33,095 nucleotides of DNA. Source: Lachnospiraceae bacterium (GTDB lineage: Bacteria; Bacillota; Clostridia; Lachnospirales; Lachnospiraceae). The notes under the pieces are model-generated. The model worked only from the letters and a program-made list of their open reading frames with translations, did no database searches and had not been told where the DNA came from. The stretch is from the NCBI GenBank assembly GCA_017544835.1, contig JAFYDI010000039.1:1-33095 (forward strand). The letters are read 5' to 3'. Numbering within the stretch: position 1 is the stretch's first letter; each line of letters opens with the position of its first letter. Below, piece after piece: positions 4,047 to 32,206 of this stretch. A program made the position numbers and the translations under genes.

Positions 4047-5402
4047 TTAATTGAGATCTGAGATGTCGCCGGCGAGGTCGCTTACGCGGTCTTCAAGTGT
4101 ACTGACGGTATCACTGAAGGACGAAACCTTGGAGTGGAGCTCGTTAAGCGCTTCTCTGACGGTTTTAGGCTGACCGTTAACCATCTGCTCGTCAAGAGCC
4201 TTTAAGTCTTTCCTAAAATCGTCTATGGCTTCGGTATAGCCGTCAATATCGGTATCAATCGCCTTTAACTCATTGGCAAAAGTGTCAATCTCCGCTTGGA
4301 ACCCGGAAGCGTCAAAATCCTCATCGGATTTAATATCTTCAAGGTCATCTCTTGCAGCTTCAAGATCGTCTGCCGCATCATCAACCATTCCTTCGATATC
4401 ATCAAGCATGTCGCTGATTTCGTCCTGAAGTTCTTCAAGTTCTTCCGCTAATTCATCTTCATCGTCGTTATCGCCGTCGGAAGAAAAGCTGAAATGGAAG
4501 TTCTTATTGAATTTCTTGTTGAATTTTTCGTTAAATTCTTTGTTGAATTTCTCGTTAAACTCTTTGTTGAATTTTTCGTTGAACTCTTCTACGTTAAAAG
4601 GAAATTCTTTCCTGAATCCTTCTTTTACCGATTCTTTGGCTACTTTCTTGCGGATAGCTTCTGTGGAGTACTTGTCTCCGCCGTACTGCGTGATGCTCGG
4701 CCAACCGTCCTGGAAGACAATGTTGTGGCGTTGCGGTCTGTATGCCGCGAACTCATCGGGTTCGTCTTTCATATCGCTATACGCTGCGGGTTCTCTCGCC
4801 GGCATGACTGCCATGGGTGCCTTAGCTGCAGTAAAGGAAAATGTTACGCTTACGTCGCCTTCGATATTCGGCGTTGTAAAGGGAATCTCGTAGAGCTCCC
4901 AGCCTTTCTGATGAAGGAGGGGCTTGATATAGCCTCTGTTAAGTCTGTATACGTTACAATTCTCCCAGTCGTTAAAGAATGCAATTTTGAAGTTGCATAC
5001 TTCATTGGCTGATTCATTCTCACCGCCGTTAAGCCAGAATACGTAGCTGTATGAGGTGTTTGGGGTAAGCATGTAAGGTCTGGAAATCGCTACGGTCTCG
5101 CCGCTGTTCCAGCTGCCAAGCATAAGTGTCTCAGAAAGTGAACCGTCTAAGCCGGTCATAAAAGAAATATCAGTGTTGCGGCGAATCCACTCGTCGCCTT
5201 TGAATGTTATATAGATCATTGATTGTGTCTCCTCCGAAATAATCGATTTATGTTCGGGCGGAGCCTTGCCTGCAGACATTCGAATGGTTCCTTCGTCTAC
5301 GAAGCTTGCTCGCCCACTCTTAATGAGGCCCTTCGCCCGTTTGGGAAAAGTGGTCCCGATAATGTCTCCATTGGCATCTGTAACTATAATGTTTTTTGTC
5401 AT
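4047..5402 (-). CDS. Unknown 451-residue protein with octapeptide repeats and acidic coiled coil
   Basis: I do not recognise a function. Three parts are visible. Residues 1-50 form a compact segment containing TFPKRAKGLIKSGRASFVDE, which from memory resembles a recurrent N-terminal tag on clostridial hypothetical proteins (not verified). Residues 64-230 look like a beta-rich, aromatic-rich domain, possibly jelly-roll or carbohydrate-binding-like. Residues 265-451 hold the octapeptide repeat EFNEKFNK, then a very acidic helical stretch with heptad-like spacing, probably a coiled coil. There is no signal peptide or TM segment, so the protein is predicted cytosolic. ATG at 5402 has GGGGAGG six bases ahead. 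It has its own promoter and terminator, so it is a single-gene unit. Its leader is duplicated (see 5391-5537). Confidence 0.8.
   Translation of the reverse strand: MTKNIIVTDANGDIIGTTFPKRAKGLIKSGRASFVDEGTIRMSAGKAPPEHKSIISEETQSMIYITFKGDEWIRRNTDISFMTGLDGSLSETLMLGSWNSGETVAISRPYMLTPNTSYSYVFWLNGGENESANEVCNFKIAFFNDWENCNVYRLNRGYIKPLLHQKGWELYEIPFTTPNIEGDVSVTFSFTAAKAPMAVMPAREPAAYSDMKDEPDEFAAYRPQRHNIVFQDGWPSITQYGGDKYSTEAIRKKVAKESVKEGFRKEFPFNVEEFNEKFNKEFNEKFNKEFNEKFNKKFNKNFHFSFSSDGDNDDEDELAEELEELQDEISDMLDDIEGMVDDAADDLEAARDDLEDIKSDEDFDASGFQAEIDTFANELKAIDTDIDGYTEAIDDFRKDLKALDEQMVNGQPKTVREALNELHSKVSSFSDTVSTLEDRVSDLAGDISDLN
4517..4590 (-). repeat. Three tandem 24-bp repeats encoding EFNEKFNK octapeptides
   Basis: Three imperfect 24-bp units sit head to tail inside the 4047-5402 gene. 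They encode about three EFNEKFNK octapeptides followed by a degenerate KKFNKNF. Substitutions are mostly at third codon positions, so the peptide is conserved better than the DNA. Unit number may vary between strains through slippage. Confidence 0.85.
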
Positions 5403-5693: not shown

Positions 5694-6512
5694 ATGAATG
5701 TCATAAATGTAACTGATTGTCACGACGAGCGGCTGAGTATGTATACCGAATGTAACGAGACTCAGCTTTTTCATTACTATGAGCCGCAAGGAGGAGTTTT
5801 TGTGGCTGAGACACCTATGGTGATTGAGCGGGCGCTTGATAAGGGATATGAGCCGATTTCTTTTTTCTTTGAAGATAAGGTGTGGGAAGCGGGCGAAGTG
5901 TGTGCTTTGGTCGAGTCGTGCGATGTACCCGATGTGCCGGTGTATGTGGCACCTTGGAAGGAAATGCGCGAGATTATAGGGTATAACCTGACGCGCGGGG
6001 CGCTTTGCGCCTTTAAGCGGAAGGCCCACGTTCCCGCTGCCGAATTGCTTGCTACGGTTAAGAAAGTTGTGGTGTTGGAAGAAGTGTTAAATCCTACGAA
6101 TGTCGGTGCGATTTATCGCTCCGCCGCGGCGCTTGGAGCCGAGGCCATTCTCATCACGACCGTCTCCGCGGACCCTCTTTACCGCCGCGCCGCAAGAGTC
6201 TCTGTCGGCACCGTCTTCTCACTGCCCTTTACATACTTTGAGAAAGGTTCTGACTATATGGCTCTTCTTAAGTCTCAGGGCTTCACTACGGTTTCTCTCG
6301 CCCTGCGCGACGACGCCGTGCCCGTCTATGACCCTGCAATCAAGGCCCACGACAAGCTCGCCGTAATCTTCGGCAACGAAGCCAACGGCATCAAGCCAGA
6401 AACCCTCGCCGCCTCCGACTACACCGCCATCATCCCCATGTCTCTCGGCGTAGACTCCCTCAATGTGGCCGCCGCCTCCGCCGTAACGTTCTATGAACTG
6501 TTTTCGAAATAA
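5694..6512 (+). CDS. TrmH/SpoU family RNA 2'-O-methyltransferase
   Basis: A 272-residue SPOUT methyltransferase. The three SpoU motifs are clear in the C-terminal half: NPTNVGAIYRSAAALG, VIFGNEANGI, and IPMSLGVDSLNVAAASAV. These form the trefoil-knot SAM site and supply the catalytic Arg/Asn/Glu/Ser set. The N-terminal 100 residues are the substrate-binding region seen in rRNA-type members. Probably methylates a ribose in rRNA or tRNA; the target cannot be assigned. ATG at 5694 has GAGG seven bases upstream. Codon choice changes along the gene: G/T-ending codons up to about 6115, then strongly C-ending codons. Downstream lies inverted-repeat array 1. Confidence 0.93.
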   Translation: MNVINVTDCHDERLSMYTECNETQLFHYYEPQGGVFVAETPMVIERALDKGYEPISFFFEDKVWEAGEVCALVESCDVPDVPVYVAPWKEMREIIGYNLTRGALCAFKRKAHVPAAELLATVKKVVVLEEVLNPTNVGAIYRSAAALGAEAILITTVSADPLYRRAARVSVGTVFSLPFTYFEKGSDYMALLKSQGFTTVSLALRDDAVPVYDPAIKAHDKLAVIFGNEANGIKPETLAASDYTAIIPMSLGVDSLNVAAASAVTFYELFSK

Positions 6513-6587
6513 TAGTCAAAGCTTATTGTTCTTTTACTATCGCGTTCAGTGTACCAAATAGATCCTGATTAGCTTTTTTCGTGCTGA

Positions 6588-7008
6588 TTCCCACCTTCTT
6601 TATTTATTTGGACTCGAGGTGGGAATTTCTTTTGACCCGCATAAGACAAATTTCCCACCTTTGATGAATTATCCTTGGCAAGGTGGGAATTATTTTTTAC
6701 TCTCAGTACACGTTATTCCCACCTTTCATGCTTCTTCGTTAACAAGGTGGGAATTATTTTTTCTGTAGATAACCATTTTTCCCACCTTCTACAAATTTCT
6801 CGCTATAAGGTGGGAACTCCTTGATTCTTTTGTCCGAAAAAATTCCCACCTTACTTGCTTTTTAAGTTAGAAGGTGGGAATCATTAAATCATTGTGCGTC
6901 TAGCTTTTCCAACCTTTTAGGGAAATATGCCTTCAAGGTGGGATTTTGCAAAAACTTATAAGACTTTTCATTCCCACCTTACCAGTCAAATATGTTAGAT
7001 GGTGGGAA
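6588..7008. repeat. Array 1: seven units of 10-nt arm / 18-nt loop / 10-nt arm, 26-nt linkers
   Basis: Left arms (TTCCCACCTT) start at 6588, 6652, 6716, 6779, 6843, 6907 and 6971. Right arms (AAGGTGGGAA) start at 6616, 6680, 6744, 6807, 6871, 6935 and 6999. Every loop is exactly 18 nt and every linker is 26 nt except one of 25, giving a 64-bp period. Arms carry only four substitutions in 14 copies (first right arm, both arms of unit 6, last right arm). Loops and linkers are all different, though loop centres are AT-rich and several linkers start with T-runs. The array fills the space between the convergent trmH-type and RNHCP genes. Individual units could terminate transcription, but that does not explain the regular spacing. 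Not a canonical CRISPR, and no cas gene is present. Confidence 0.95.
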
Positions 7009-7014
7009 AAAGTG

Positions 7015-7443
7015 TCACCACCTAAGCTCGCCGTCGCCACCCATGAGGCGGGTCATTTCTTCGATACGCTCGAGGGGGAAGGGCGGGCAGGATACGGGCT
7101 TCATGGCAAGAGACATAAGTTTCATGGGATTGTCGTCCGCCGCGATACGGTTAGAGCTTAATGCCCCGCATATCTTACAGCGGTGGACAATGGCCCATTC
7201 GCCGTTCTTGCGTACCCATACGGAGATGGGCTCCATTACGCCGCCGCAGTCTGCGGAGCGGTCGCCGGGCTCGTTGTCTAAGTGCTGACTTGAAAGGCAG
7301 TACGGGCAATGATTGCGATGGTCGCTGCCGGCGCCGGCAGGCACTACGAGCCTGCCACAGACTTTGCAGGTAAAGGATTCGTTGCAAGGGTGTGTCTTAT
7401 AGTAATTCTTTTCGTATTGTTTTCTTTTATTTTCTCTGTTCAA
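7015..7443 (-). CDS. RNHCP domain protein (zinc ribbon)
   Basis: About 142 residues. The eponymous motif is present as HRNHCPYCL, with an upstream CKVCG pair and a downstream HRCKICG pair, giving zinc-ribbon-like metal sites. The SNRIAADDNP segment near the end is also typical of the family. Function of RNHCP proteins is unknown. The open frame runs from 7458, but the TTG at 7443 has GGAGG eight bases upstream and gives the better start. The stop codon lies seven bases from the last arm of array 1. Confidence 0.9.
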   Translation of the reverse strand: MNRENKRKQYEKNYYKTHPCNESFTCKVCGRLVVPAGAGSDHRNHCPYCLSSQHLDNEPGDRSADCGGVMEPISVWVRKNGEWAIVHRCKICGALSSNRIAADDNPMKLMSLAMKPVSCPPFPLERIEEMTRLMGGDGELRW

Positions 7444-7482
7444 TTTTCTGTCCTCCAAAAAAGTTTATTTGTTCAAACCTTT

Positions 7483-7514
7483 GGGAGGCCTGCGAGACGT
7501 TTAGCAAACCTCCC
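7483..7514 (-). other. Hairpin between rsgA fusion and RNHCP gene
   Basis: GGGAGG (7483-7488) pairs with CCTCCC (7509-7514), with a further three-base pair inside a small internal loop. There is no T-tract on either side. It could be a weak terminator, a processing site or chance; no clear role. Confidence 0.35.
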
Positions 7515-7620: not shown

Positions 7621-9204
7621 TCAGAAATCTTCTAAAGTTTTGCCTTTCGCTCTTCTGCGCTGGTAGACCCACTTGGAAATTTCTTTCTTCTTTGCGTAGT
7701 TTTTGGTGTTCTCGGCGTTGAAGTTGCGATAGAGCTCGAGGCGCTTGGGGTCGAGGCGGCCATCGCGGAGAGCCGCCTTGATGGCGCATCCGGGCTCGGT
7801 TTCGTGCCGACAGTTGCCAAACTTACATTGAGCTTCGAGCTCAATGATGTCGGCGAAGGTCTCTTCGAGCCCGTCTGCCACGTCGGCAAGGCCGATTTCG
7901 CGCATGCCGGGCGTGTCGATTATCGTCACGCCCCCGCCGAGGTCTATAAGCTGCCTGTGCGTGGTAGTATGGCGACCTTCGCCATCATCCTCACGAATTG
8001 CGGCAGTCTTCATGACCTCGCGCCCCGCCAGCGCATTAATCAGCGTAGACTTGCCGGCACCCGACGAGCCAAGCAGGCAAATCGACACTCCCGGAACCAG
8101 ATACTCGCGAAGTTCGTCGAGCCCCCATCCCATGGTCGCAGACACCGCATGTACCTTGACCCCGGGCGAAACCGTCTCAGCCTCGGCAACATATGAATAC
8201 GCGTCCTCCACCAAGTCCATCTTCGTAAGAATCACCACAGGTGTCACGCCACCCTCAAGCGCCACGCTCACATACCTTGCAATTCTGTTATAACTGTAAT
8301 CTTCATTGAGCGAAGTCACTATAAACGCCAAATCCGCATTGCTCACCATATACTGGTCCGTCGCCGTCTTCGCCTGGTCCGGTCGCTTCAGCATGCTCAC
8401 CCGCGCGCACACCGACGTAATCACCGACTCGCCCCACGGATTAAGTTCAAAGGTCACATAGTCTCCCACAATCGGAAGCTCATCCGGCCTCTTCTCGTAA
8501 AAGAAGCCCTTAAGCTTTGCCGGAATCTCCGACTCCCAGAACTTAATCGTATAAATATTCTTCTTAACCGACGCAATTCTTCCGAGTCTAAACTCATGAA
8601 GCGGCTGACATTCAAGCTCCAAAGGCTTCATAAAAGGGAACCTCTTACTAAACTCCGCTACCGACTCCTCATTCTCACACTCAGCAAAAAAAGACGCCTC
8701 TTCAAACCTTCCATGCACCTCAGAAAAGCCCGTATTTAAAGGGAATGCCATGAACGGATCGCTATTTTGACCATTGGAGTCAAAAATACCATAACACGCG
8801 CAATTTTTAAACCCGAACTTGGGATAATACCCCGGCTCGCCAAATATTACCACCCCAAGGTACCCGGCCTCACGCGCAAGTTCAAGCGTCTCTTCAAGCA
8901 ATCTCTTGCCTACTCCTCTGTCATACCACAAAGGGTCCACGCAAAGTGGTCCGAAGGTCAGCACTTCATGCTCCGTATCCCCGTCTACAACTTTGGCACG
9001 CGTATAATAGATGGCTCCGACAATCTCTCCATCCACCTCAGCCACGCGACTGATTTCCGGTACATACTCAGAAGCCCCCCTTATCATATGCACGAGATAA
9101 TGCTCGAAGCACCCGGGCCTGTACACGTTCCAAAAGGCCCGCATAGTCATAAGTTCTGTCTTGTAATAATCTTCTGTTTGTTCCTGTCTGATAATAATGT
9201 TCAC
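7621..9204 (-). CDS. rsgA: GNAT acetyltransferase fused to RsgA ribosome-assembly GTPase
   Basis: One uninterrupted 527-residue frame. Residues 1-190 form a GNAT domain with acetyl-CoA loop DRGVGKRLLEE and the GYLGVVIFGEPGYYPKFGF segment. Residues from about 205 onward are a complete RsgA: OB-like region, then circularly permuted G motifs in the order TKMD (G4), SAT (G5), GSSGAGKST (G1), HTTTHRQ (G2) and DTPGM (G3). The zinc knuckle CKFGNCRHETEPGC follows. RsgA matures the 30S subunit. The GNAT substrate is unknown. Start is GTG at 9204 with GGAG nine bases upstream. RsgA is normally about 300-350 residues, so the N-terminal domain is a true addition. Confidence 0.93.
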   Translation of the reverse strand: MNIIIRQEQTEDYYKTELMTMRAFWNVYRPGCFEHYLVHMIRGASEYVPEISRVAEVDGEIVGAIYYTRAKVVDGDTEHEVLTFGPLCVDPLWYDRGVGKRLLEETLELAREAGYLGVVIFGEPGYYPKFGFKNCACYGIFDSNGQNSDPFMAFPLNTGFSEVHGRFEEASFFAECENEESVAEFSKRFPFMKPLELECQPLHEFRLGRIASVKKNIYTIKFWESEIPAKLKGFFYEKRPDELPIVGDYVTFELNPWGESVITSVCARVSMLKRPDQAKTATDQYMVSNADLAFIVTSLNEDYSYNRIARYVSVALEGGVTPVVILTKMDLVEDAYSYVAEAETVSPGVKVHAVSATMGWGLDELREYLVPGVSICLLGSSGAGKSTLINALAGREVMKTAAIREDDGEGRHTTTHRQLIDLGGGVTIIDTPGMREIGLADVADGLEETFADIIELEAQCKFGNCRHETEPGCAIKAALRDGRLDPKRLELYRNFNAENTKNYAKKKEISKWVYQRRRAKGKTLEDF

Positions 9205-11751: not shown

Positions 11752-13125
11752 CTATAAATATTTCACGTTATTCTCAATAAAATATTTTTCCCCTGTTCGC
11801 GGGTCCTGCTTCTCCTCCGAAAGGCTTTCGAATACAAATCCGCAGGCTTTCTGAAGTTCGCGTGATGCCACATTCATAGCTCTGTTGCCGGAAATCAATT
11901 TAACAGCGCCTTCACTGCGGGCAGCCTCCTCAAAAGCCTTAAGAATCTCACGCCCATAGCCCTTTCGCACAAAGTCAGGGCCGAGCGCCACACCCGTAAT
12001 TTCGAACGCATCAGGACCGCAGGGGCACATAACCGCCCAGCCCACAGCCTCGCCGATATCCTTCGGATACACGCAGAAAGCATACTTGTTATTATACTGC
12101 CAGTTGACGGAACGTTTCATACGCTCTTCCGCTTCCTCCTCGGATTTGGTCGTCTCCCAGAGCATATACTTAGCCGACTCGTCCCTGCTCCATATATTCT
12201 TATAAAGAGCCTTCCAGTCATCAAGTACCGGCTTCTTAAGAACCAGATGCTCCGTTTCAAGCCTAAAGCCCGAGTAATCGTTTATGGCTTCGCCCTCGCT
12301 TGTAAGGCAGAAAATCATTATCGCCTGCTGAACAGGAAGAAGCGATTTCTTAAACTCGTAACCTACAAAATAAGGCGAATCTATCGCATCTTCAGACACT
12401 TCCTCGCCGATATAAAAAGGCGGGCACGGATTAAGTAACGCGTCGGGATTGGCCTTATCCATCACCGCTTTGGTAATCTGCAAGCCCTCAAAATCCTTAA
12501 GCGCCTCAGCCGGAAGCGAATCGGTGCAGACAACATCCTTACCGCGTACCGCCTCTTCGATATCATAATTCACAGTCAGCCCATCTATCTCATATCCCTT
12601 CGCGCAGCACTGCTCGAGACTGAACTCAAAGGCCTCCGAAGCTTCTTTCCAAGCAAGCCCGATATTACCCTTTGCTCCCATAAAAAGAAAACGACACTTC
12701 TTAATATCGTCCCGCTTCTTTGACAGCGCATACATATCAGACATCATCTCGCAAGGATGATTGACACTTGTAAGCGCATTAATAACGGGAACCTTTGCAT
12801 ACTTAGCTATCTCTTCAAGTACGCTCATATCCTTATGGCGCACCACAATTAGGTCTGCCCAGTTATTTAAATAGCCTACAACATCCTTGATGCGTTCCTT
12901 TTTATCAAGTGCTTCAGGCGGGAACAAAACCGTCTGCCCACCCAACAGATGTACACCTTTCTCAAAGGATACGCGCGTCCTTATGCTTGTCTCCGGAAAG
13001 AACATAACAGCTGTTTTTTTATCCAGAATCCGTTCAAATCCGCCTTGAGCCACAGCGTCAGCCGTCTCAAATATCTTTTCAATATCGGAATATGCCAGAT
13101 CCGTCAGGCGTAAAAAGTGCTTCAT
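11752..13125 (-). CDS. Ornithine/knotted carbamoyltransferase-like protein fused to GNAT
   Basis: A 457-residue two-domain protein. Residues 1-285 follow the carbamoyltransferase fold. The carbamoyl-phosphate motif is SIRTR at 47-51 (usually STRTR). The second is HPCE at 123-126 (usually HPxQ), and the Cys loop reads LNPCPPFYIGEEV where OTCs have HCLPxx. Residues 290-457 are a GNAT domain with acetyl-CoA loop VRKGYGREILK. Because Gln is replaced by Glu and the Cys loop is altered, the N-terminal domain may act on another substrate or be non-catalytic. ATG at 13125 has AGGAG six bases upstream. The ASCH gene ends 10 bp upstream. Confidence 0.85.
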   Translation of the reverse strand: MKHFLRLTDLAYSDIEKIFETADAVAQGGFERILDKKTAVMFFPETSIRTRVSFEKGVHLLGGQTVLFPPEALDKKERIKDVVGYLNNWADLIVVRHKDMSVLEEIAKYAKVPVINALTSVNHPCEMMSDMYALSKKRDDIKKCRFLFMGAKGNIGLAWKEASEAFEFSLEQCCAKGYEIDGLTVNYDIEEAVRGKDVVCTDSLPAEALKDFEGLQITKAVMDKANPDALLNPCPPFYIGEEVSEDAIDSPYFVGYEFKKSLLPVQQAIMIFCLTSEGEAINDYSGFRLETEHLVLKKPVLDDWKALYKNIWSRDESAKYMLWETTKSEEEAEERMKRSVNWQYNNKYAFCVYPKDIGEAVGWAVMCPCGPDAFEITGVALGPDFVRKGYGREILKAFEEAARSEGAVKLISGNRAMNVASRELQKACGFVFESLSEEKQDPRTGEKYFIENNVKYL

Positions 13126-31017: not shown

Positions 31018-31455
31018 TTATCCTTTATCTGGCATATTCTTTTTTGCCAAAACAGCTGGTAATATTAATGGCTGTTGTCCAAATGAAGAAGTTATTTCAC
31101 CTATGATAAGTGATATTCTACTAATTAACTGAGACGTAACAAAATCCCCATTCTCCATAAATTCTTCTGCTAGATTTATATTTTTCCAATCATGTTCTGA
31201 TTTGCGATCATTAAATCTCAAATCAGCACCAAACGATACACTCATGGTAAATATATTTTCCGGATCGAATGTTACCGATCTAGTAATCAAAATACGTACA
31301 CCTTCATCGCTTAAGGAAGCATTCACATTATCTTGGCATAATATAGCGATTTGTTGGTTATTATCAGTATTTGATTCCTCAATTCTTTTATAATTAACCG
31401 CATCTAAAAAAATCCCTATTTCAGTTCTAAAATACTCTTGTAAATTTGCTATCAT
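31018..31455 (-). CDS. SecB-like chaperone linked to HicAB (putative)
   Basis: 145 residues. The middle and end follow the SecB fold pattern: VRILITRSVTFDPENIFTMSV with a following SFGADLRFN, then LISRISLIIGEITSSFGQQPLILP, which matches the helix and proline-rich ending of SecB-like chaperones. It overlaps the HicB stop by four bases and is the third gene of the unit. Such proteins act as TA-linked chaperones that stabilise an antitoxin. The similarity is recognised by eye only; it could be an unknown small protein. AT-rich like its neighbours. Confidence 0.6.
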   Translation of the reverse strand: MIANLQEYFRTEIGIFLDAVNYKRIEESNTDNNQQIAILCQDNVNASLSDEGVRILITRSVTFDPENIFTMSVSFGADLRFNDRKSEHDWKNINLAEEFMENGDFVTSQLISRISLIIGEITSSFGQQPLILPAVLAKKNMPDKG

Positions 31456-31952
31456 AATGTTTTCACCTCATCTTGATAAGTGTGCTCTACCTTAAATTGA
31501 ATTATATTTTTACCGCTATTGACTGTAGTTTCATTTTCATAACTTGGCCTATCCATTCTGATAGTTTCAGTCAAATCTCTAACACTCTCAGCTAATGCTT
31601 TTGTTTCATCTTGATCATTATCGATGAATGATGCAATAGCATTTTCTACCTCTGAATTCAATGACTGTCCATCAACAAATGCTCTTAACGCTAATTTACG
31701 ATGCAAATCAGGTGAAATTCGAACATTAAAAGTACCTTTATACTCTTTTTCTGGTTCTTTCCCAACCTCAGAACAAAATTCTATATAATCATCAACAGCT
31801 GCATGAAATTCCTCTTCTATACTTGCAATATTAGCCGATTCAAAATCAATATAATCATTAATTCCTTCTATTTTCCCTCGCAAAGTCATTGATTCTGAAT
31901 CAAATTCAACTTTAGTATGATATCCCTTGTATTCCATAATATTATTCATCAT
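31452..31952 (-). CDS. hicB: HicB family antitoxin with extended C-terminus
   Basis: 166 residues. The N-terminal 70 residues are the HicB domain (YHTKVEFDSESMTLRGKIEGINDYIDFESANIASIEEEFHAAVDDYIE). Residues about 75-112 form a ribbon-helix-helix (FNVRISPDLHRKLALRAFVDGQSLNSEVENAIASFI). A tail of about 50 residues follows, longer than in most HicB proteins, ending in an IIQFKVEHTY segment. It overlaps HicA by ATGA and the SecB-like gene by four bases. Predicted to neutralise HicA and to bind the operator near 32220. Confidence 0.88.
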   Translation of the reverse strand: MMNNIMEYKGYHTKVEFDSESMTLRGKIEGINDYIDFESANIASIEEEFHAAVDDYIEFCSEVGKEPEKEYKGTFNVRISPDLHRKLALRAFVDGQSLNSEVENAIASFIDNDQDETKALAESVRDLTETIRMDRPSYENETTVNSGKNIIQFKVEHTYQDEVKTL

Positions 31953-32206
31953 AGCTCACCCATTTCCTCTAAACGATCTGCTAAATCCCTAATAGCTCCT
32001 ACACTCATCACATCACCTGGATGTGGCTTATGCAACAAAATAATGCGCTGATCACTGCTTCTGAAAAATTTAACTCTTGAACCTGACGTTTTTCCCTTAT
32101 TGTACTCTTCAAATCCCATCTGTGATAATAAGAACTTTGCTTCAGAATATGTATAATCTTTAGGGCGTGAACGCAACCTTTCTTTAGCCTTATCTATTTT
32201 ACTCAT
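31949..32206 (-). CDS. hicA: HicA family mRNA interferase toxin
   Basis: 85 residues, a normal HicA size. The dsRBD-like fold is visible, with SEAKFLLSQMGFEEYNKGKTSGSRVKFF and the catalytic-histidine region ILLHKPHPGD. Predicted to cut mRNA and arrest growth when HicB is lost. AGAGGA lies seven bases upstream of the ATG at 32206. First gene of the three-gene unit. Confidence 0.92.
   Translation of the reverse strand: MSKIDKAKERLRSRPKDYTYSEAKFLLSQMGFEEYNKGKTSGSRVKFFRSSDQRIILLHKPHPGDVMSVGAIRDLADRLEEMGEL

Follow-up and report, generated by a model that had tools for sequence, protein, structure and literature searches.

Helically spaced arrays of symmetric half-sites between genes of Lachnospiraceae: candidate binding sites for a dimeric protein

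The genes for a SpoU/TrmH-type rRNA methylase and an RNHCP-domain protein converge on an intergenic array of seven repeat units in the genome of a Lachnospiraceae bacterium (G000; assembly GCA_017544835.1). The array lies in the window, that is, the whole stretch of DNA analyzed (positions 1-33,095 of contig JAFYDI010000039.1; 33,095 nucleotides), and its features are listed in Table 1 together with other frames of the window. Each unit consists of a 10-nt arm, an 18-nt loop, and a second, inverted 10-nt arm, and the linkers are 26 nt long, except for one of 25 nt. Only four substitutions were found in the 14 arms (right arm of unit 1, both arms of unit 6, and right arm of unit 7), and none of the loops and linkers repeats another by eye. 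This arrangement, described in the initial annotation, was borne out by a rescan, confirming that the array is real: a two-unit pattern (up to 2 mismatches) gave 5 matches in the window versus 0 in 100 dinucleotide-preserving shuffles. When periods of 45-89 and gaps of 4-39 were scored as a grid over 13 loci (146 kb), 12 of which had been chosen through array or flank matches, the best 60 scores listed all had a period of 64.

Table 1. Coordinates of the seven-unit array, its two neighbors, and other frames in the window
Feature	Position	Strand	Remarks
Array	6588..7008	.	7 units, period of 64 bp; intergenic, neighbors convergent
Unit 1	6588..6625	.	arms TTCCCACCTT / GAGGTGGGAA, loop of 18 nt
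Unit 2	6652..6689	.	arms perfect
Unit 3	6716..6753	.	arms perfect
Sole 25-nt linker	6754..6778	.	26 nt at the same place in sister G013 (1-nt difference)
Unit 4	6779..6816	.	arms perfect
Unit 5	6843..6880	.	arms perfect
Unit 6	6907..6944	.	one change in each arm
Unit 7	6971..7008	.	one change in right arm; RNHCP stop codon 6 bp beyond
SpoU/TrmH-type rRNA methylase	5694..6512	+	left neighbor; PF00588, E 8.2e-34; ends 75 bp before array
RNHCP-domain protein	7015..7458	-	right neighbor, convergent to methylase; PF12647, E 8.2e-40
451-aa protein	4047..5402	-	NEKFNKEF repeats and coiled-coil-like tail; Pfam matches all below curated cut-off
527-aa frame	7621..9204	-	domain fusion: GNAT acetyltransferase (residues 25-133) and RsgA ribosome GTPase (266-439)
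457-aa frame	11752..13125	-	ornithine/aspartate carbamoyltransferase domains, then GNAT acetyltransferase; second GNAT fusion in window
Toxin-antitoxin pair	31452..32206	-	HicA/HicB-like by Pfam

When the whole G000 genome was scanned with a single-unit pattern (up to 3 mismatches), 15 sites were found, all inside four arrays (contigs C9, which carries the window array, C59, C77, and C82), and the reversed control gave 0. The C59 array has nine units with arms TTCACACCTN, and consecutive units of the C77 array are near-identical, indicating a recent tandem duplication. A two-unit covariance model detected arrays in 3 of the 18 genomes of the genus, namely G000 and its sisters G013 (five arrays) and G001 (six arrays), with the best E value below 1e-16. 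Nine of the 18 gave no match at E 1, and the other six one weak match each (E 0.0247-0.72); the locus in G008 was inspected and contained no unit, as was the case for two further matches of this model (G000 C19 and G013 C12). The half-sites of these arrays fall into class A, approximately TTC[CA][CT]ACCT[TC], and class B, approximately [AC]CC[CA]nnCC[AT]T with loops of 17-18, which was found only in G001. G001 is not purely class B: class-A units occur in C13 and C18, and the two units that end its array at the methylase locus carry an ACC core and were initially sorted as class A. A family-wide scan with the arm core of the window array matched 1 of 397 genomes, G000 itself. The reversed control pattern gave three matches in G273 and one in G177 among the same number of genomes, and the G273 trio may represent another kind of regular array. 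Two candidates elsewhere were set aside: a locus of Prevotella sp. ne3005 (L077) is a single chance pair and no array, and a locus of RGIG4309 (L070, 5866-6160), with inverted pairs, CATACCTACCT-type arms and, by eye, some 64-bp steps, reached only E = 0.42 with model R1, is doubtful and was left uncounted.

A second form of the array has a period of 53 bp. Model R2, built for class B, matched 8 genomes among 144 relatives at E 0.01: G000, G001, G013, G105, and four weak single matches (G028, G086, G443, and G059) in which no array was seen on inspection. The arrays of G105 showed the 53-bp period, and model R3, derived from them, matched six of 397 family genomes at E 1e-3 (G105, G241, G261, G337, G328, and G166), all of which carry 53-bp arrays that follow the same plan but differ in their arm letters; both model searches also ran the stricter filters, those for more than 40 genomes. 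The half-sites of these six genomes, in the same order, are CCCCTACT, CCCGACT, CCGACTAAAT, TTACGTACT, CCCAACAAA, and CCTACTA, some of which are alike, and some half-sites (GTACTAAA in G337) may resemble Bacillus replication-terminator sites. The G166 array has three units only; the R3 matches on C2, C32, and C26 of G241 are arrays, and that on C2 of G337 was no array on inspection. A 400-kb sample of G241 contained two more arrays, and 9 of 10 palindromes scoring 11 or 12 of 12 letters in it were located inside arrays; the G241 arrays consist of five units each, except for one of the six, which has five or six. Arrays were thus found in nine genomes of the family (G000, G001, G013, G105, G241, G261, G337, G328, and G166), with 1-6 detected per genome and mostly different half-sites. 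These counts are lower bounds because each search mainly recovers arrays of its own class: at its threshold, R3 had no match in G000, and the arm pattern of the window finds G000 only.

The distances between dyads were quantized. Among 78 dyad spacings below 80 bp in the window group, 72 were 62.5-65 bp, five were 54-54.5 bp, and one, at a junction between the two classes, was 60.5 bp; the scan for 64-bp arrays retained only units with a neighbor at 50-70 or 115-132 bp, so that other steps would escape it. Each of the five class-B arrays with at least six units has exactly one step of 54-55 bp, followed by three units, when one low-scoring unit is filled in for C13 and one two-period step is counted in C11. 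The six 53-bp genomes gave 62 spacings of 51.5-54 bp and one of 84 bp, approximately eight turns. The spacings near 64, 54, and 84 bp therefore correspond to steps near six, five, and once eight helical turns, the two main classes (62.5-65 and 51.5-54 bp) being approximately one turn apart, and with the exception of the 60.5-bp step, the dyads are spaced in whole turns, as in a helically phased array of protein sites. The proposal in the initial annotation that the period was close to six helical turns is supported.

The center of the unit has a base composition of its own. The four dyad bases in the window group were 88% A/T versus 51.5% for the other loop bases, which was equaled in 0 of 5000 permutations, and this feature had not been used in picking units; the difference was weaker in 53-bp arrays (87% versus 73%). 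In a profile that covered the unit, the four bases preceding it, and a few following it, A/T periodicity peaked at 10-10.5 bp, a signal that comes in part from the fixed arm letters, and the middle of the linker was nearly featureless.

The arms are conserved as letters rather than as pairs. After the orthologous array and near-duplicates had been dropped from 78 hand-picked, in-register units (off-register units were excluded from the profile), the letters C3, C7, G31, and G36 were invariant in the remaining 65, and C8 and G32 were present at 97-98%; this invariance is partly built in, since the units were picked by hand from scans scoring those same letters. Pairing between the two arms of a unit was no better than with right arms shuffled within the same array: 8.09 of 10 versus 8.21 in 55 units of class-A blocks, 7.10 versus 7.11 in 31 units of class-B blocks, and 6.33 of 9 versus 6.60 in 21 units of G241, with the orthologous array G013_C14 and near-identical units of C77 and C18 left out of the test. 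When class-A units were pooled over arrays, the pairs 4/35 (p = 0.011) and 5/34 (p < 0.001) exceeded shuffles; this excess vanished under within-array shuffling and therefore reflects arm variants common to an array. In the G001 arrays, two of which mix class-A and class-B blocks, the test gave p = 0.004 with the blocks unseparated. The lack of covariation between the arms of a unit in all three groups suggests that symmetric half-sites, and not hairpins, are selected, and a protein with two-fold symmetry would impose just such symmetry without pairing at the level of the unit. Between the window arrays of G000 and G013, 5 of 140 arm positions differed, versus 11 of 126 in loops and 15 of 155 in linkers. 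The initial annotation had proposed that selection or a copying process acts on arm letters and geometry and not on filler; selection of this kind is supported, and the comparison of arms with loops and linkers together (26 of 281) agrees with it (Fisher p = 0.046; p = 0.12 against loops alone).

Comparison of the three sister genomes revealed that arrays are replaced as blocks. At the window locus, G000 and G013 have all seven units in common. G001 is closer to G013 (100-bp flank windows mostly 92-100% identical, a few lower), but its array at this locus is non-homologous to that of G013 and mainly class B. Unrelated arrays of different classes also occupy the same slot at C59/C37/C5, C82/C6/C22, and C51/C11, making four loci in all, at which G001 is class B where G013 is class A, and G000 is class A at three of them. 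The flanks are mostly approximately 90-100% identical, and identity falls to noise near the array edges; for C51/C11, windows within approximately 400 bp of the array were 88-100% identical, and those further out were lower. Within one class, the C59/C37 pair of G000 and G013 has an arm class in common and most units cannot be aligned, and the C82/C6 pair differs in unit number (three versus six). The sister species retain regular spacing even where the arms change, whereas a loss of this regularity among relatives had been named at the outset as the outcome that would speak against the array. Three of the six G241 arrays are copies of a whole element, 78-84% identical, including a terminator-like hairpin and in both orientations, and the other three have only the plan in common. 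Non-homologous arrays between matching flanks, together with the whole-element copies of G241, indicate that arrays spread and are replaced as blocks.

The genes near arrays encode an rRNA methylase, RNHCP, GH39, shikimate kinase, amino acid kinase, PadR, HTH, DHH, flavodoxin, GH130, melibiase, and other proteins, and Pfam analysis of 21 proteins at or near arrays (4 in the window and 17 elsewhere) revealed no functional theme in common. Several arrays, including that of the window, are flanked by convergent genes, and at three or more loci the flanking genes are divergent; three of the six G241 arrays (loci L168-L171, L183, and L184) are between convergent genes, and the contexts in the window clade are mixed. 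An HTH protein beside one array was considered as the determinant of class and rejected: its versions in a class-A and a class-B genome differ at one of 120 residues, which lies outside the HTH. No protein binding the half-sites was found by this comparison of one array-adjacent HTH gene between classes.

We consider it probable that the arrays are helically phased rows of sites for a putative dimeric DNA-binding protein, and that these rows both disperse and undergo replacement as entire intergenic elements. Each unit would be one two-fold symmetric site for a sequence-specific dimer (or larger assembly), which would read one half-site per side (TTCnnACCTT in the window) and span or bend the central A/T tract. 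Since units are placed at whole helical turns (64 bp being approximately six and 53 bp approximately five), bound dimers would face the same way and could cooperate along the array, and the result would be a phased nucleoprotein patch between genes. Arrays would form a family of dispersed intergenic elements, growing by tandem duplication and diverging outside the half-sites, and the specificity of the protein may drift between lineages with the arrays following it. Such a patch may structure the chromosome, insulate genes, or serve the spread of the element; we infer a role in chromosome structure or insulation rather than in the control of one neighboring gene. A protein-binding scaffold was among the roles offered in the initial annotation, and it is supported as one option, the role itself being an inference.

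An origin as a selfish or transposase-spread element of the REP/BIME/REPIN sort, whose arms would be kept for recognition by an endonuclease and which would have no host role, is unlikely. The dispersed whole-element copies of G241, the unit sequences that two G337 arrays have in common (by eye), and a regular alternation of inverted elements that recalls BIMEs (PMC2817692) are in its favor. However, the Y1 transposase family of RAYTs (PF01797) is absent from 6 of the 9 array genomes, including G000 (96.6% complete), and present in three, one of these nine assemblies, G105, being only 61% complete; the family is also present in 6 of 9 genomes in which no array was found. Arms without hairpin-like covariation, the small number of arrays detected per genome, and the helical steps, which a hairpin endonuclease does not need, also argue against this origin. 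G013 carries four full-length copies of a 160-aa Y1 transposase (C9, C17, C24, and C47), three of which lie 184 bases inside the start of a contig and the fourth at the same distance from the end of one, a placement expected if IS200-type elements had broken the assembly. A low probability is also given to clusters of operators, each bound by a cooperative repressor or activator that controls the gene next to it. Operators typically consist of symmetric, phased sites, and some arrays lie upstream of genes, e.g. an amino acid kinase (read as proB) and a G105 frame (rubrerythrin by eye), but the neighbor genes are unrelated, several arrays stand between convergent genes, and the genes remain in place when a whole array is replaced.

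The two remaining readings, both raised in the initial annotation, fared worse. Stacked RNA hairpins or bidirectional terminators are very improbable: unit 3 of the window folds well alone (z = -5.07; 1 of 200 shuffles as good), T-rich stretches follow several units, and both arms of a unit are of the same class, as pairing would likewise need; however, no compensatory change was found within arrays of the three groups, mismatched arm pairs are common, a terminator scan of 6400-7500 with a loop limit of 8 detected nothing within the array, neither the window nor eight other array loci gave an Rfam match at the gathering score, and the flanking genes are divergent at three or more loci. It is very unlikely that the arrays capture foreign inserts of 18 and 26 nt in the manner of CRISPR. 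The loops and linkers of the window array are unique and nearly fixed in length, and one phage match was obtained with the whole array as the query (Bacillus phage Chedec 11, two records; 93% over approximately 28 bp, E = 0.5, chance level), covering the loop of unit 7 and part of an arm. On the other side, loops have a positional A/T profile, the fillers of G105 and G261 are tandem copies, the same query had no plasmid match, and none of three types of exact two-unit pattern was found in viral contigs; a G105 array matched neither plasmid nor phage. Pfam scans covered the 4 window proteins and 17 genes near other arrays, none of which is a cas gene.

Our preferred explanation is thus still a row of sites for a dimeric protein. 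Searches of open-access PMC papers listed no description of comparable arrays, although one may exist elsewhere, and the arrays look like a hitherto undescribed type of docking strip for proteins on the chromosomes of bacteria. Protein binding, DNA bending, cooperativity, and a joint change of specificity and sites would all be properties of this putative system. A wider and more speculative version, which we hold to be possible though doubtful, is that the arrays correspond in bacteria to satellite or centromere DNA: a dimeric protein would build phased patches on dispersed arrays in several genera, the geometry (palindromes of 33-39 bp at steps of five or six turns) would be inherited, the half-site code would be rewritten across loci between close species, and intact arrays would be swapped into fixed intergenic slots. 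From one genus to another, the letters change, but step length, symmetry, and array size appear to be retained, suggesting that selection on DNA geometry is separable from selection on sequence. The sisters, which differ in class at the same four loci, offer a natural experiment through which the protein might be found and the joint change of specificity and sites followed. If the arrays organize the chromosome, one group of bacteria from gut and rumen possesses a previously undescribed architectural element.

The arrays may be compared with several known systems. REPINs are paired, inverted REPs, and REP ends form hairpins and are linked to RAYTs. The arrays resemble REPINs in their conserved ends and variable middle, but differ in their 10-nt arms, tandem order, and helical phasing, and the lack of PF01797 in the window genome led us to reject REPIN/RAYT membership there. 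The MIRU-type minisatellites of mycobacteria are likewise interspersed intergenic tandem repeats of approximately 50-80 bp, although they are not known to form dyad-symmetric, helically phased arrays. Repeats with unique inserts of fixed length recall CRISPR arrays; the present arrays differ in that the arms are only 10 nt long and inverted and that the inserts show a positional base profile and, in some relatives, tandem copying. With neither a described family nor covariation found, the arrays do not behave as a structured RNA family. BIMEs are alternating inverted elements at regular spacing (PMC2817692), and the arrays are similar to BIME/REP in being short, intergenic, and inverted, with alternating orientation, regular spacing, variable length, dispersal, and lineage-specific letters. 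The half-sites here are paired without arm covariation, the spacing is in whole turns, fillers are mostly unique, arrays are few per genome, and G000 has no Y1 transposase, unlike in BIME/REP. Kinship with REP/BIME is a resemblance: among three traits tested, alternating regular intergenic spacing was found, while a RAYT in the window genome and covarying hairpins were not. As for function, plasmid iterons and parC of R1 are regular, helix-phased rows of protein sites on which a nucleoprotein complex assembles. The present arrays are like these in being regular, helix-phased rows of putative protein sites, and differ from them in being chromosomal, with several loci per genome, palindromic sites of 33-39 bp, and half-site letters that vary among genera.
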